Source: Lineus longissimus
Taxonomy: Eukaryota; Nemertea; Pilidiophora; Heteronemertea; Lineidae
Reading direction: 5' to 3'
DNA length: 64,000 bases
Assembly (NCBI RefSeq): GCF_910592395.1
Contig: NC_088315.1
Span: 3,040,501-3,104,500 of the forward strand
Within the stretch, counting starts at the first letter, position 1. Every line of letters begins with the position of its first letter. The notes beneath the pieces are model-generated. The model had not been told where the DNA came from and did not search any database. It was given only the letters and a program-made list of their open reading frames with translations. This document shows, piece after piece, positions 41,898 to 49,182 of the stretch. The translations under genes were made by a program, and so were the position numbers.

Positions 41898-44603
41898 AGC
41901 TGCTTCAAAGTGGTGACAGTGTCAGGTGGCGAAACTGGGGAGACCTCGAAATAAACGTCAACTTCACACAGTCAGGGTGACACACCCCATCTTTACTCAA
42001 TATCCCTGAACAACTAGTCCACACTGTAACACACTGCACATGCTTCAAGATAATCCTTAAGTTTTGATCCCAATTTTGTTGTTTTATTTGAACAAACGTC
42101 ACCAACATATCAAAAGAATTTCATTACGTAAGGTTGTATTTCGTGTATTTGTTGATCTGATCTTTAGTCCAAATGAAAACCAATGCCAGGTCACCAGTTT
42201 TGCCTAAATAGGCCTACATCTACATGAATGTAATGTAGTCGAACGAAAAGTTAAACTATGGACAATATTTAGGCCTACACTAAATAGCCAATCATTCTGG
42301 ATAATCAGCCATGATGATGTCATCATAATCACGGCGGAGAGTGAAACACCAGATTGCACGATGATGCAATTAGAACTTAAAAGGGTAATAAAGGCATGAG
42401 AAAGTCTCTTTTTCTCTCGATTATTTCAAGCAATACCTGATATATTTTCATATTGCCAAATATGAGGTTTATTTAATTAAAAATGTAATTTGAAGATTCA
42501 AACCCAACGGAATAGCCAAGTACTTCTCTGTTTAATTTTGTTTACTTGTGGTTGATTTGACCACTCTGTCTTCATTGCACAATCTTATTACCATCTTGGC
42601 CACAACACCTCCAAGCCTTTTCCTCAAGAAAGTAGCCAGCCCTTTTCAAGCACATGAAGTTTGCCAAGGCTCTAGACTTCAAAGTACCTCCAGCTGCACT
42701 CACTACTGATGCCATAACTGCATACAGTATCAAGCACTGATTCTCGGAACCACTAAACGTTGAGTCTGAGATTGAACTGATGGTTCTTGAGTTTTTAGAG
42801 ACAGCTGTTTATTAATAGTGGTCATAGTTCTACTTCTATGACAACTAGGCCCATGCACCCAAGCCGCCCTTGTGAGTTACACTGTTTAGAGAGGAAAGTA
42901 GGCCACGATGTGAAATTATAAGTCAGGCTCTCATCATCACCGAAAGACAAATGATAAAATATTATACTTTGGTTTTTAGGTCTAGGAAACAAATGCCTTG
43001 CCATTGTTGTAAACTATCAACCATGTCTACTGTACATCAATTTGTGAGACCAAGAATTGATTTCAATTGATTTAATTTTACAATTTATTCAGGACTTAAG
43101 TTAACAGTATGCAATTCATCATGAACCGTCTTAACCGGCATTTTAAAAGGCTTAGGCCTACGAGCTCAATGAGGAACGGGCAAAGCGCTTATAGAATCAA
43201 CTTGCTTTATTTGCTAGGATTACATCAAACTAAGATCAGATTATTCTTGGATATGTTGTATTATGCAAAGCAAATAACACCTAAATCAAAATAATGAGCT
43301 ACAAATTACAATCCTTTTTTTGTCGAGATAAATCAGGTCTATTCTTCTTTGTTATTCTGTGGAAAACATCTTCTCATCGCCATTAAATCCCCTTGGCCTG
43401 CCCAGAGCTAGACCCCTCAAAATCGTCAAAGGTACCTGTGGTCTGCTCGGCTTCAATGGATGTACGATTTTGAAGAAATGGGTGTTGACCAGTCATGCGT
43501 TTCACCTGGAACAAAAGGTCACAGTGGCTGATGGCATTGCCCAAATTTTGCTTTGGTCTTCTGAGACTGAGTGTGTGCATTTCACCATTTCGTTGTTGAA
43601 AAGGTCCATCAGGCATCACTCCAATGGCTTCAGCCTCCGACTTACTGGTGGAAGGGCAAGGCTGAATATTGTAAGCTGTGAAAGGTGGAGAGAATCTGAA
43701 TGAGACGGAAGTATGAGACACAGACACAGACATGCTATACACTTGACACACAGAGAGAATACACAGCTGCAGGAGAAGCAAGACAAGATCAGACAGGATA
43801 GGACTAGGGAGGACAGTCACTGAGTCAGTTGAGCTTGAGTCACAGTGCATTTTGCAGTGGACAGTGAACCACAAAGTAAACAATGATCATACCAAGACGC
43901 CCCTTCTCGTCAGTCATTTTGCTGCTACCTCTGTTTCTTCATCTAAATCGGTTATAACTTTCTACCGGTCTCAACTAATCCTGGTTGGCTCTTATTTCTT
44001 AAACTGGCACACTTTTCGGAGTGAAAAATTGAAACCTGTTGAACTGGCCGCCATCATGGGCACTGATGACGTTGTATGAATTCGAAAGGTGGCAGCACCT
44101 GGCGGTGGGTGTGGGATGAGCGGTACACTCCCGTGGCAGTCTATTGCGTTATCCTAATTCGATCTCCTTGTGCGACAGGACGAGGCAAGTCCACAGCGTT
44201 CGGAGTGTAATGGGCGGACTTCGTAAGCATGGCTCAGGACTGATTTATAGTAGGTCTTCAGTTATTGAGAGGGCCAACTAGTTTGGTCTAAAAATCGATG
44301 ATACTGTATTGTCATTCAAATAAAAGAGATTTTTAAGAAATTTTTAAGAATGTGACTTGGACTCATCAGAAATATGAAAGTTGGAACACAAACTTTGATA
44401 ATCAGTCTGCATTGCATCCCATGAGCAGAATCTAAACCCAGAAAAGCTTAACTTGTGTTTGTCTTGGTCAGTCAAGGGGGTGGGTTATTGAGCTCCTAGT
44501 GCAGCTAGCCAATTACCTAGCCTCGATACGCTACGCTGTACAATAACGGACTGCCCAAAAACAGAGGTCGACACATCCACACAATATTCAAAGTGAAAAA
44601 ATT
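41898..44603. other. Region between the SEC14 gene and the snf 3' end
   Basis: This is promoter-proximal DNA for the SEC14 gene plus intergenic sequence. One minus-strand frame (43883-43383) is open for 166 codons, with a hydrophobic segment near its start. It contains acceptor-like TTTCACAG (43684 downwards) and donor-like CCAG|gtgaaa (about 43505), so part of it may be an upstream exon. It resembles no protein I know and is not called as a gene. Confidence 0.4.
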
Positions 44604-44640
44604 AACACAACAGACAGTTTTCACGACGAGTATTTTTATT
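44604..44640 (-). terminator. snf: snf polyadenylation site: AAUAAA plus GU-rich element
   Basis: On the minus strand AATAAA (44640-44635) is followed 18-31 nt later by CTGTCTGTTGTGTT (44617-44604), a good GU-rich downstream element. It is the first complete canonical signal pair I found after the snf stop. It lies about 250 nt downstream of the last U1A-type hairpin. If used, the snf 3' UTR is about 2.1 kb. Confidence 0.6.
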
Positions 44641-44885
44641 ACAAAAGATGTCAACTTCATACAGTTTTTACATGATAAATGCTCGACTCACCGTTCAATA
44701 GAAATGCAGTCTGTACAAATATTATTGATATTTACAACAAATATTGGGTAAAAATTTAAGTTACAATTATACAGATTAGCGCCAGCCACATTTGGACACT
44801 ATCCAGCCTGAATAACTTGCATACCTGGATACCTACACTAATGTCCAACTTAGGATCAGTGAAACAAGACCATTTGCCTGAAATC

Positions 44886-44907
44886 CCAACTGGTGGTGCA
44901 ATGTTGG
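44886..44907 (-). promoter_or_regulatory. U1A/SNF-type RNA hairpin 4
   Basis: On the minus strand: stem CCAAC/GUUGG (5 bp, extendable by a U-G pair), loop AUUGCACCACCA (12 nt), C-G closing pair, followed by GAUUUCAG. The stem sequence differs from the other three hairpins but still pairs, while the AUUGCAC loop is unchanged. Confidence 0.65.
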
Positions 44908-45007
44908 AGAAATCAAATTAAGAATAAATAAACTTAAATAATCTGAATTGATAAGCCAAGGGGTGGCAGAGTATCATGGTCACTGATGGTTTCATTCAAT
45001 CTGAAAG

Positions 45008-45033
45008 GACTGGCGGTAGGTGCAATGCCAGTC
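45008..45033 (-). promoter_or_regulatory. U1A/SNF-type RNA hairpin 3
   Basis: On the minus strand: perfect 7-bp stem GACUGGC/GCCAGUC, loop AUUGCACCUACC (12 nt), C-G closing pair, preceded by UUUUCU and followed by CUUUCAG. U1 snRNA stem-loop II presents AUUGCACUCC in the same arrangement. Confidence 0.7.
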
Positions 45034-45116
45034 AGAAAAGATGTCAGTGAAGTCCACCAAATCGCCTCAGACAAACCCACAGCATGCCCAGCCTGAACAT
45101 GGCTGCCCTGAAATAA

Positions 45117-45142
45117 GACTGGCAGGAGGTGCAATGCCAACT
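45117..45142 (-). promoter_or_regulatory. U1A/SNF-type RNA hairpin 2
   Basis: On the minus strand: six-pair stem GUUGGC/GCCAGU including two G-U pairs, loop AUUGCACCUCCU (12 nt), C-G closing pair, followed by CUUAUUUCAG. It is the weakest stem of the four. Confidence 0.6.
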
Positions 45143-45230
45143 GGATGGCTTCTTGAACAGTGCATCTACTACCAACATGAATGTTTTCATCCGAGATAGC
45201 TGAGCAGAACATTCTGTAGCCATCTGGAAG

Positions 45231-45256
45231 CACTGGCGGGGTGTGCAATGCCAGTG
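45231..45256 (-). promoter_or_regulatory. U1A/SNF-type RNA hairpin 1
   Basis: On the minus strand: perfect 7-bp stem CACUGGC/GCCAGUG, loop AUUGCACACCCC (12 nt), C-G closing pair, preceded by UUUUCU and followed by CUUCCAG. It is the first hairpin met in the snf transcript, about 80 nt past the foldback element. Confidence 0.7.
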
Positions 45257-45338
45257 AGAAAATGAATATTAATGTACACTTTATACAATATACAATGAAA
45301 CGCCATTGCCACAGCCAACCAAATAACATCTAGGAATG

Positions 45339-46426
45339 GGGTGTATACAAAACCAAGACCTAAGACATAAGACCTAAGACCTAAGATCCCCCGAAGTACA
45401 AAACTAAGACCCGGGAGGCCAATTCCAAACTAAAATTTTGAAGAAAAATATCAGAGTCTTAGTTTTGTACCTCGGGGGATCTTAGTTTTGTACATCAGGG
45501 GATCTTAGTTTTGTACGTACAAAACTAAGATCCCCCGAGGTACAAAACTAAGACCCAATTCCAAACTAAAATTTTGAAGAAAAATAACAGTGTCTTAGTT
45601 TTGTACATCAGGGGATCTTAGTTTTGTACGTCAGGGGATCTTAGTTTTGTACGTACAAAACTAAGATCCCCTGATGTACAAAACTAAGACCCATGATTTC
45701 TTTCCAAATTCTGCCCCTCTTTCGAATTCATTTTGATGTAGTAATATCACCTTTGAGATGCATGCAGTTGCTCCATCTGAATAATACCTCCATATGCACT
45801 ATGCAGGCACGACCGGTCATCACTCTAGCATATACTCTAGCATATAAGGCCTCCATCCAGCTCCACAAAAAGTGGCGAAACCGGTGCAATACTCCTTTGA
45901 GTCATTCGGAGGAGCGCCGCCATCGGAAGAGTTGGAACGAGTAAAATATGAACGTTTTCTTAACCATCAATTACATACTAACCGAGTCAAACAACGTTAT
46001 TGCAATATAGGCCGTTATTTAATGAATTCGAAAGAGGGGCAGAATTTGGAAACTAAGATCCCCTGATGTACAAAACTAAGACTCTGATATTTTTCTTCAA
46101 AATTTCAGTTTGGAATTGGGTCTTAGTTTTGCACCTCGGGGGGATCTTAGTTTTGTACGTACAAAACTAAGATCCCCTGATGTACAAAACTAAGACTCCG
46201 ATATTTTTCTTCAAAATTTTAGTTTGGAATTGGGTCTTAGTTTTGTACCTCGGGGGATCTTAGTTTTGTACGTACAAAACTAAGATCCCCTGATGTACAA
46301 AACTAAGACTCTGATATTTTTCTTCAAAATTTTAGTTTGGAATTGGCCTCCCCGGGTCTTAGTTTTGTACTTCGGGGATCTTAGGTCTTAGGTCTTATGT
46401 CTTAGGTCTTGGTTTTGTATACACCC
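45339..46426. mobile_element. 1,088-bp foldback transposon with 9-bp target duplication, Mutator-like
   Basis: The direct repeat CTAGGAATG flanks the element (45330-45338 and 46427-46435). Both ends begin GGGTGTATACAAAACC and read inward as inverted copies through AAGACCTAAGAC repeats. The roughly 350-bp arms consist of reiterated words such as TACAAAACTAAGATCCCC in alternating orientation, so they contain nested palindromes centred on GTACGTAC. A perfect 29-bp inner inverted repeat (45704-45732, 46021-46049) bounds a unique core of about 290 bp with no transposase. A 9-bp duplication with long inverted ends is typical of Mutator-like elements. The element lies between the snf stop codon and the hairpin array, so it is probably transcribed in the snf 3' UTR. 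The very similar arms indicate a recent insertion. Confidence 0.85.
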
Positions 46427-46740
46427 CTAGGAATGTCCTGGAGTGAAGTATTTGAGAGGTAAATCAATGTCAAATTCTTATATGCACAACCTGTCTTTCA
46501 GTTTCTCGCTAAGAACTTTCATGTAAACAGCAAAAGGGGACCCTCACACAACATGAAGACTGTATTTCTTAGGGACCACTTCAAATTTACTTGAGTTGAG
46601 GTAACAAAACATTAGTTGCAAAATCTACAATTTTAAATTTTCCAACATGTTTAGTCTTAGTAGCTGAAGCATATTTGAGATGGTCCCAGACAACGTGACC
46701 GAATATTGTTCTACCCTTTCTATACCACCATGTTAACCAA

Positions 46741-48830
46741 CTATTTCTTGGCGAACGAGATCTTCATAGCATTCTGTGGAGTGATCTTGAATCCCTGCAG
46801 TGCTTCCTTGGCAGCATGTGACTGTCCCTCGTTCTCGAACTCGACAAACGCAATGTCGTGGCGACCGGGCACCAGACGCACCTCCTTGAACCCAGGGAAT
46901 CTAGAAGAAAACACAAGAAATGGGTCAAATAAGGGATACGCGAGGATATCAAATATGATAAGGAATCATGCGGGTCTTTTGATCCAGGGGAGGAGAAACT
47001 TACTCTTATTTAGTCTCTGTGTCTGTGCTGAATGCTCCCACTCGCCAAAAATATATGCCACAGGAGTAAACCACACAAATTTATGTAGCATCATAATGAA
47101 ACACAGGCCCTGTACAAGGATTACCTATGTCACTTTTAGATGCAGGTACATGTACCACAAACATTTTCTGGCGATCAATTTTTTTCCTTGTGGTACAAAT
47201 AAAGGGTGTTTAAAAACTGAAAACCAGCTGTTACGTCAAGTGATCTTGACACCAATCATGGAAAAGTTTCAGAATGCTAGGATTTATTAAACTCCATAGT
47301 AAACATCTGAGTACTTACTGATTGAACAACATAGACAACATCATTTCGTTCGTCTCCTCGGGTAGGTTCGTCAAGAACAGAATCTGGTTGGGTGGTTGTT
47401 CAGGCATCGTGGTTGGCTGTGCTGGGGCTTGTTGAGCTGGAGCTAAAAAAAGTTTTGAGATTACATGAAATGTGTTTCTTTGAAGAAGATTGGACAGTTA
47501 GTTCAGTGTTTATGTGTTCGTATCCAATTGTAGCGTGAATTTGCAGAGGCAGTAACATCATTAAGTAGTATAGAATATTGAGATAAGTGGTAAAAATGCA
47601 TGTCTGATTCGAACTGATGACAATATGATACTAACCAACAGGAGCTGGTGGCTGTTGTACAGCAGGAGTTGGCATATTGACGGCAGGAGCTTGTTTCTGT
47701 TGCTGTACTCTAAAAAGAAAAGACGCGAAACATTAGTAAACAATTCGGGACCACTCGATTACAAACGGCATTGTCGTTTCAACATCTACATTGTAAATGA
47801 TCAACTTAATCCCTCTGGCTATATAGTAGACAGAAAAACCCCTTTCCAAGGATATAAATATGGGAAAGGCAACAAAACCATGGAAATGAGTCTTTTTGTC
47901 CCAGTAACCTTTTTTCAATACTTCTTTCATTTTATTTCGAACTGCCTTTCTATATCATATGCAATTTCTCTAGCCTCCATGCTGAGTTACGTTTGATAAA
48001 GAGAAAAGTTGTTGCAACACCCACCTCTGTTTCTTCTTTTTCTTGTCAGGTGCTTCTTCTTCAACCGGAGCTGGTTTCTTCTTCTTGGGCCGCTCAACAA
48101 AAGTCCCTTTCATCCTGGCAATCAGGTCTGAGTCAACCTTGGAGTAGGAGATGCGCTGAAGTGATATTAAAAGATTTTCAGATGAAATATGGAGTGAAAA
48201 ATAAAACAAGGTTCGAATGACGATGGCTGAATAAGTGAATTAATTGATTTTGTACGGTCAGTTCACTACTGGTCAAACATTTAATTTAATTTCTTACATT
48301 AATACACTAAGGGTCAAAACAATTAGTGAAAACACTTTTTGTTCTGGAATGAATTTGGTTGGAAAGTTATGGGAATTGGTGGTCATTCCAGAACATGTTT
48401 GGCGGGCAAAGAGTTAAAGCCACCCTACTCACCATAGGTTTATCATAAAAGGGAAATCCTTGCATGGACCTCATAGCATTGGTAGCACTGCTGATTTCCT
48501 TGAAGATCACGAAAGCTTGACCTCGCATTCTTAATGTTTTCAGCGCTACGATGTCCAAGATTTGTCCAAACTGTGAGAAGATGGCGTACAGTGATTTCTT
48601 CAACTCTGAAAAGTATATCAATAAAACATGAACTGCTTGAAATTTTCCTCTTGAATCTGGCTGAAAGAGGCCATCACAGTGAAGTGAATGGGGAGAGAAC
48701 TACCTACCCTCTGGATATGGGAGAACTTCTCACAATCTTAATCTCAACAATGTCAATAATACTTACCATCTTTCTTAATTTTCTCGTTTAAGTTGTTGAT
48801 GTAAATTGTGTGGTTTGGCCGGATGTCCAT
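46741..48830 (-). CDS. snf: U1A/U2B''/SNF snRNP protein
   Basis: This is a spliceosomal protein that binds U1 snRNA stem-loop II and U2 snRNA stem-loop IV. Exons 48830-48767, 48605-48433, 48155-48025, 47709-47636, 47442-47319 and 46900-46741 total 726 nt, 241 residues. RRM1 (about 8-90) has RNP2 IYINNL and RNP1 RGQAFVIF, with [20 protein letters not shown] nearly identical to the human proteins. The loop [10 protein letters not shown] resembles U2B''/SNF rather than the SRS loop of human U1A, consistent with one dual-specificity gene outside vertebrates. A Lys-rich linker, a Gln/Pro/Ala-rich linker and RRM2 ([20 protein letters not shown] to MKISFAKK) follow. A 5' UTR intron is likely, because an acceptor (TTTCAG, about 48853) sits just before the ATG. 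The 3' region carries four hairpins matching this protein's own binding site. Confidence 0.97.
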
Positions 48831-48936: not shown

Positions 48937-49182
48937 AATACTTGACTTGCCAAACTCAGCTCGACGCCGAACTGCAGCGCCACTCACGGACAAAGATAGA
49001 ACAACTCGACATTTTTTTCACCGGTTTCTCGCTGCGCATGCGTACCAGCGTCATCTTTTGTTGATTTCCGCTGGTACGCATGCGCAGCGAGAAACCGGTG
49101 AAAAAAATGTCGAGTTGTTCTATCTTTGTCCGCGAGTGGCGCTGCAGTTCGGCGTCGAGCTGAGTTTGGCAAGTCAAGTATT
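48937..49182. repeat. Nearly perfect 246-bp palindrome upstream of snf
   Basis: Arms 48937-49050 and 49069-49182 (114 bp each) are inverted copies with a single mismatch that I could see (CACTCACGG against CACTCGCGG), around an 18-bp loop. It lies about 110 bp upstream of the snf ATG, within the region where its first non-coding exon or promoter should be. The arms include GCGCATGCG and GCTGCAGTTCGGCG. No target-site duplication is obvious. It may be a recent foldback insertion or an inverted duplication of promoter sequence. Such a structure is also a known source of assembly artefacts. Confidence 0.8.

Follow-up and report, generated by a model that had tools for sequence, protein, structure and literature searches.

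The minus strand of a 64,000-nucleotide stretch of the genome of the bootlace worm Lineus longissimus, a nemertean (C8:3040501-3104500, below called the window), carries snf, the gene for the U1A-type spliceosomal protein SNF, and past its stop codon lie four hairpins that each present the heptamer AUUGCAC in the loop. We read this array as four sites for SNF (U1A/U2B'') in snf's own terminal exon, through which the protein would exert negative feedback on its output, and we put the probability of this reading at roughly three in four. Since four SNF-type sites stand behind SNF's own coding sequence, and no second array was found by the patterns used, feedback appears to be the best explanation. 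SNF made in surplus of what the U1 and U2 small nuclear ribonucleoproteins (snRNPs) take up would be free to bind the AUUGCAC loops; once bound, it would hamper productive processing of the snf terminal exon and thereby lower the amount of snf mRNA. Such a negative feedback would keep the level of SNF balanced with its small nuclear RNAs (snRNAs).

Four U1-type hairpins behind the snf coding region

The AUUGCAC boxes start at 45249, 45135, 45026 and 44902, at spacings of 114, 109 and 124 nt. In all four hairpins the loop is 12 nt long, opens with the heptamer and is closed by a C-G pair, and the stems measure 7, 6, 7 and 6 bp, G-U pairs included (Table 1). This is the arrangement of U1 stem-loop-II-like hairpins, on the same strand and with the same spacing, that a preliminary description of this DNA had claimed.

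The heptamer alone says little, since the window holds 16 copies against 11.8 expected. On a 12-nt loop with a 6-bp stem it occurs four times in the whole window, each time within the array. Shuffling the 451-nt array region 20,000 times produced such hairpins with a mean of 0.00025 and a maximum of 1, and 200 shuffles of the window, both strands considered, gave an expectation of 0.025 against the four found. When the flanks of each hairpin were shuffled and loops of 9–14 nt were allowed, P was 0.002, 0.012, 0.003 and 0.019 for hairpins 1 to 4. The stems had also been described as varying while they keep their pairing, and the counts agree: across the four hairpins 92.9% of the cells are paired and five of the seven pairs are changed on both sides, each value being reached in 0 of 500 shuffles (the count of further pair types was reached in 36 of 500). 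These counts come from four sequences and are support, not proof. A covariance model built from the four hairpins recovers them at E < 2e-6, as it must by construction, and its next match in the window stands at E 0.062.

How rare is such an element in the genome as a whole? The assembly searched comprises 391,118,348 bases, and the published genome span is 391 Mb (PMC8593623). The core GGC-AUUGCAC-N5-GCC occurs six times in it, against none for the control, and three of these are hairpins 1 to 3; the other three are lone sites whose stems have 5, 3 and 3 bp and whose 3-kb loci contain no further hairpin. Pairs of the word CATTGCAC lying 95–120 nt apart are common (114, against 82 in the control), many of the matches listed being tandem repeats. 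With the closing G of the 12-nt loop required on both members, five pairs are left genome-wide, three of them in the array and two, with stems of 2 and 1 bp, on C2 and C15. The control for these closed pairs, the pattern read backwards, gave ten. Closed pairs are thus no commoner than in the control, and the array stands out by having three of them consecutively, on genuine stems. Among 25 loci fetched genome-wide, there are seven whose AUUGCAC sites combine stems of 0–3 bp with a loop of 12 nt, and in L030 a lone site has a 6-bp stem with a loop of 10 nt. No second array of the same spacing and loop length was found by the two genome-wide pattern searches, which arrays of other spacings or loop lengths would escape, and a repeat family carrying the hairpin far from snf, raised earlier as an objection, finds no support in them. 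On the strength of these searches and the shuffles, a chance origin of the array was rejected.

Other identities for the stretch were considered. A 131-aa open frame runs through the array, and a protein-coding reading was dropped, 44937-45329 having no Pfam match. No Rfam match in the window reaches the gathering score, and 44500-45400 gave two at chance level (E 3.7 and 9.5).

The gene in front of the array is intact. Its six exons join into one open frame of 241 aa, and the protein matches the U1A-like protein of Lineus longissimus at 100% identity, which bears out the identity proposed for it; Pfam finds two RRMs, and human U1A and U2B'' align across both. The stop codon ends at 46741. As the preliminary description had it, the array lies ahead of a poly(A) site: the AATAAA at 44640 follows hairpin 4 by 244 nt and the stop codon by 2,100 nt. 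A palindromic insertion of 1,090 nt, whose long arms are for the most part 96–100% complementary and which has a 7-nt duplication at its flanks, separates the stop codon from the array. The insertion looks recent and, if transcribed, would form a long double strand. A second inverted repeat, with 114-nt arms that are 99% complementary and 18 nt between them, occupies 48937-49182, shortly before the point where snf coding begins (48830), and probably falls within the snf promoter or 5' untranslated region (UTR).

Table 1. Features of the snf locus, in window coordinates
Feature	Position	Strand	Remarks
snf/U1A coding region	46741..48830	-	exons 48830-48767, 48605-48433, 48155-48025, 47709-47636, 47442-47319, 46900-46741
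Foldback (palindromic) mobile-element-like insertion, 1,090 nt	45338..46427	-	ATTCCTA at both flanks; ATTAAA at 46023 inside
Hairpin 1: CACUGGC / AUUGCACACCCC / GCCAGUG	45231..45256	-	alone -10.5 kcal/mol
UUCCAG after hairpin 1, 3'-splice-site-like	45224..45229	-	
Hairpin 2: GUUGGC / AUUGCACCUCCU / GCCAGU	45118..45141	-	alone -6.2 kcal/mol, competing 10-nt loop
UUUCAG after hairpin 2	45108..45113	-	
Hairpin 3: GACUGGC / AUUGCACCUACC / GCCAGUC	45008..45033	-	alone -11.1 kcal/mol; robust in context
UUUCAG after hairpin 3	45001..45006	-	
Hairpin 4: UCCAAC / AUUGCACCACCA / GUUGGG	44885..44908	-	alone -5.3 kcal/mol; stem sequence differs from the other three
UUUCAG after hairpin 4	44878..44883	-	
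5'-splice-site-like (U1-pairing) CAG/GTATGC	44819..44827	-	score 8.7 (simple consensus score, post hoc)
5'-splice-site-like ACG/GTGAGT	44686..44694	-	score 10.5 (post hoc); 45 nt before AATAAA
AATAAA poly(A) signal	44635..44640	-	sole AATAAA from 47000 to 44300; T/GT-rich stretch next

U1 snRNA and SNF protein of Lineus

The hairpins had been taken for U1-type sites by analogy, and the U1 snRNA of the worm itself upholds this. At least 39 matches to it were found (42 of 6,821 candidates were scored), of which 37 score above the Rfam cut-off and 29 lie on C12, many at a period of 595 bases. Every AUUGCAC site listed for L007-L018 reads CC-AUUGCACUUC-GG, in stem-loop II; among eight further matches, picked among variants, six carry AUUGCAC, one of these with an altered closing pair. 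With its C-G-closed 10-nt loop on a different stem, the worm's U1 thus offers SNF the heptamer and the closing pair of the snf hairpins. At position seven of the loop stands a C, as is typical of U1, and not the G typical of U2, a distinction taken from PMC5992148. The copies L007-L018 form a tandem U1 snRNA gene array at C12:6716516-6750652, in which some copies have a changed or replaced 5' end.

A genome with so large a U1 gene array and so many tandem repeats of CATTGCAC raises the thought that the hairpins are functionless debris of one or the other, the more so as hairpins 1 and 3 are 85% alike across 41 nt. This is very improbable. The hairpin stems are unlike those of U1, on which ground an origin as U1 pseudogenes was rejected, and they differ among each other with their pairing kept; the AUUGCAC sites of the seven loci mentioned above have stems of 0–3 bp. 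The spacers show no detectable likeness either (12 flank comparisons of about 50 nt outside the tail described below, shuffle fractions of 0.07–0.96), which makes a recent tandem repeat unlikely and leaves a recent duplication of units of about 115 nt unsupported; an old duplication would escape this test.

On the protein side, RRM1 of SNF is identical to that of human U1A at 86 of 103 positions. Kept among the RNA-contact residues, a list compiled in part from PMC9977717 and PMC2203988, are Y13, N15, N16, E19, K20, K22, L49, R52, Q54, F56, K80, R83, S91 and D92 in human numbering. Changed in loop 3 are S46 to L, S48 to T and K50 to R, and elsewhere Q85 to S. Human U2B'' carries the same Leu and Thr in loop 3 as the worm protein. 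In the alignment Leu46 of the worm SNF falls on human L49; by position it also corresponds to Leu46 of the Drosophila protein, a residue reported to stack on the closing pair of U1 (PMC5992148). The RNA-binding face of SNF is largely intact, and SNF is predicted to bind the array. Viral contigs yielded no relatives of SNF.

Splice-site-like tails and the step that may be affected

Each hairpin is trailed by a short UUYCAG tail. In the DNA, TTYCAG starts 1–4 nt past each 3' arm and 7–10 nt past the end of the loop, and it has no other occurrence in 45330-44701. A random span on the minus strand holds the motif with a probability of 1.44%, and the product for four is about 4e-8, for a motif picked after being seen. 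Because the tail follows every stem and is absent elsewhere in the stretch, we regard the hairpin together with its 3'-splice-site-like tail as the unit; on the simplest reading it would be this unit, and not the spacer, that has been kept. The tails had been noted before, together with the idea that the CAG-containing flank might be a splicing signal, and the counts strengthen it. The TTTCT reported upstream of three hairpins is likewise there, at hairpins 1, 3 and 4.

Do these units work as 3' splice sites? Their sequence shows UUYCAG in 4/4, a pyrimidine run in 3/4, and a branch-point-like word 31 nt before the AG in 2/4 (CTCAC and CTGAC, in hairpins 1 and 3), with such words at 35–40 nt in hairpin 4 and none at a useful distance in hairpin 2. 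A rival reading is a splicing switch, in which each SNF hairpin sits between branch point and AG, and SNF, free or as a U2 component, blocks or recruits the acceptors, so that a splice in the terminal exon or 3' UTR, perhaps followed by decay, sets the output of snf. The tails and their near-absence from the background would fit, as would the donor-like sites scoring 8.7–10.5 in the final 250 nt before the AATAAA and a further one, scoring 9.2, that the last coding exon contains. There are parallels, too. Drosophila SNF is reported to suppress splicing of Sxl exon 3 directly, and its RRM1 to self-associate (PMC2731243), and U11/U12-65K is an snRNP protein described as controlled through its own 3' UTR (PMC5473595). 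Other observations speak against the switch. Hairpin 2 lacks both the upstream pyrimidine run and a well-placed branch-point word, a further CAG occurs in every unit, either within the 3' arm or at the edge of the loop, and in the 17 nt upstream of the CAG the U count is 3, 8, 5 and 5, compared with 8–12 at the five real snf acceptors, of which two end in TTCAG and three in TAG. We consider such a switch less likely than not.

The two donor-like sites between hairpin 4 and the AATAAA are a mild, post hoc signal. The stronger one outscores all five real snf donors. Minus-strand sites of at least 10.5 occur at 0.17 per kb and those of at least 8.7 at 0.61 per kb, so that one of the former is expected in 244 nt with a chance of about 4%. 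For the human U1A gene, Guan is said to have described a U1 site in 2007. In U11/U12-65K a conserved U1 site is reported to inhibit cleavage and polyadenylation (PMC5473595).

Which step would bound SNF affect? Human U1A is reported to repress the polyadenylation of its own mRNA (PMC6884704, PMC9977717), and from this precedent one would expect bound SNF to repress 3'-end processing. Polyadenylation control leaves the UUYCAG tail unaccounted for, and the tail argues for control of splicing or at least adds it. We place polyadenylation slightly ahead: blocked polyadenylation or terminal-exon definition, perhaps helped by the U1-like sites before the AATAAA, has somewhat less than an even chance, and control of the 3' splice sites that house the hairpins is a tentative second. 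What is left goes to stability, export or translation. A feedback element that an invertebrate evolved for itself, unlike the vertebrate one, in which bound SNF would directly control the acceptors of the four units and U1-type donors would tie splicing to 3'-end formation, seems unlikely; if true, a protein that serves both U1 and U2 would use its own transcript to gauge how the two snRNPs are balanced.

Several observations weigh against feedback through these hairpins, the first of them concerning folding. Hairpins 2 and 4, folded alone, are no more stable than their shuffles (37 and 48 of 200 equalled or exceeded their stability), and robust folding in context is limited to hairpin 3 (0.80–0.99 in 4/4 contexts). 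Hairpin 1 forms with flanks of 40 and 100 nt and fails to form with 75-nt flanks or in 738 nt; the inner five pairs of hairpin 4 range from 0.03 to 0.82 over four contexts, and hairpin 2 stays near 0, an additional A-U pair being possible there that would use up the first base of the loop. Hairpins 1, 3 and 4 are present and hairpin 2 is absent in the minimum-energy fold of the 451 nt, proposed earlier as a check, and the region as a whole is unremarkable in stability (z -1.43); folding is thus weaker than the preliminary description had implied. U1A is reported to contact AUUGCAC and the closing CG pair and to select the heptamer in loops of various sizes or in linear RNA as well (PMC2203988), for which reason the weak folding in context counts less. 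Upstream of hairpin 1, the stretch 45300-45323 can pair with that hairpin (-21.6 kcal/mol, shuffle P 0.03) and could compete with it. The idea of a switch built on this capture was dropped, with a P of 0.03 only and similarly strong partners available elsewhere to the other hairpins.

Further points of this kind concern binding and layout. The serines 46 and 48 that U1A is reported to contact (PMC9977717) are Leu and Thr in the worm SNF, the array loops have 12 nt and those of U1 10 nt, and the linker after RRM1 aligns with no obvious counterpart of the polymerase-inhibiting stretch of human U1A. Hairpin 4 lies 244 nt from the AATAAA and the distance from site to site exceeds 100 nt, in contrast to the compact element of vertebrates, and the array has been seen in one species, Lineus longissimus. 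Finally, the ATTAAA at 46023, inside the insertion and upstream of the array, could end the snf transcript early, and that this transcript runs on through the array to 44885 is what we infer. The same signal, the 1,090-nt insertion and an AATAAA 2,100 nt past the stop codon would also suit an array that is part of a different transcript, or one that acts as a decoy and titrates SNF, with no feedback on snf. This is improbable, given that the array comes directly after the gene for the cognate protein, in the same orientation and before the AATAAA, and that the genome yielded no second one with its spacing and loop length.

Comparison with known systems

Vertebrates, in which U1A and U2B'' are two distinct proteins, supply the textbook example of U1A autoregulation; its vertebrate form, the polyadenylation inhibition element (PIE), has the Rfam number RF00460. 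Like the PIE, the Lineus array lies past the stop codon of a U1A-family gene, in the gene's own region, and offers more than one AUUGCAC-type box with a poly(A) signal downstream. The PIE folds its two boxes into one compact bipartite structure, which takes up two U1A molecules and through them inhibits poly(A) polymerase, whereas Lineus has four separate C-G-closed hairpins 109–124 nt apart, located 244–616 nt from the AATAAA and each provided with a 3'-splice-site-like tail. Of the parallel drawn earlier with the bipartite element, the boxes in the gene's own 3' region hold, and the compact two-box fold does not; nor is there a PIE match among Rfam matches up to E 10 in 44500-45400. Titles and abstracts among the matches listed from the open-licence literature name no invertebrate example of U1A autoregulation, which is weak evidence of absence.

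Other systems resemble the array in part. With stem-loop II of the worm's U1 it shares AUUGCAC on the 5' side of a C-G-closed loop (4/4 in the array), and it differs in having 12-nt loops throughout where U1 has 10 nt, in its stems and in standing outside a U1 snRNA. U11-48K and U11/U12-65K are likewise described as spliceosomal proteins controlled via own non-coding sites that engage the splicing machinery (PMC5473595); in that system the U11 snRNP recognises an enhancer of splicing, in contrast to the bare SNF-type hairpins of Lineus. Drosophila SNF is reported to regulate one particular pre-mRNA directly, which offers it several sites (PMC2731243), yet these are poly(U) tracts in another gene, Sxl, and not AUUGCAC hairpins in its own.

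Taken together, the Lineus array is most likely a variant of U1A autoregulation with a layout unlike that of vertebrates. If this is true, a four-site element in a lophotrochozoan snf would mean that the circuit is far older than its vertebrate form, or that it was built twice, and it would provide a natural case of a protein common to U1 and U2 that senses its own excess.
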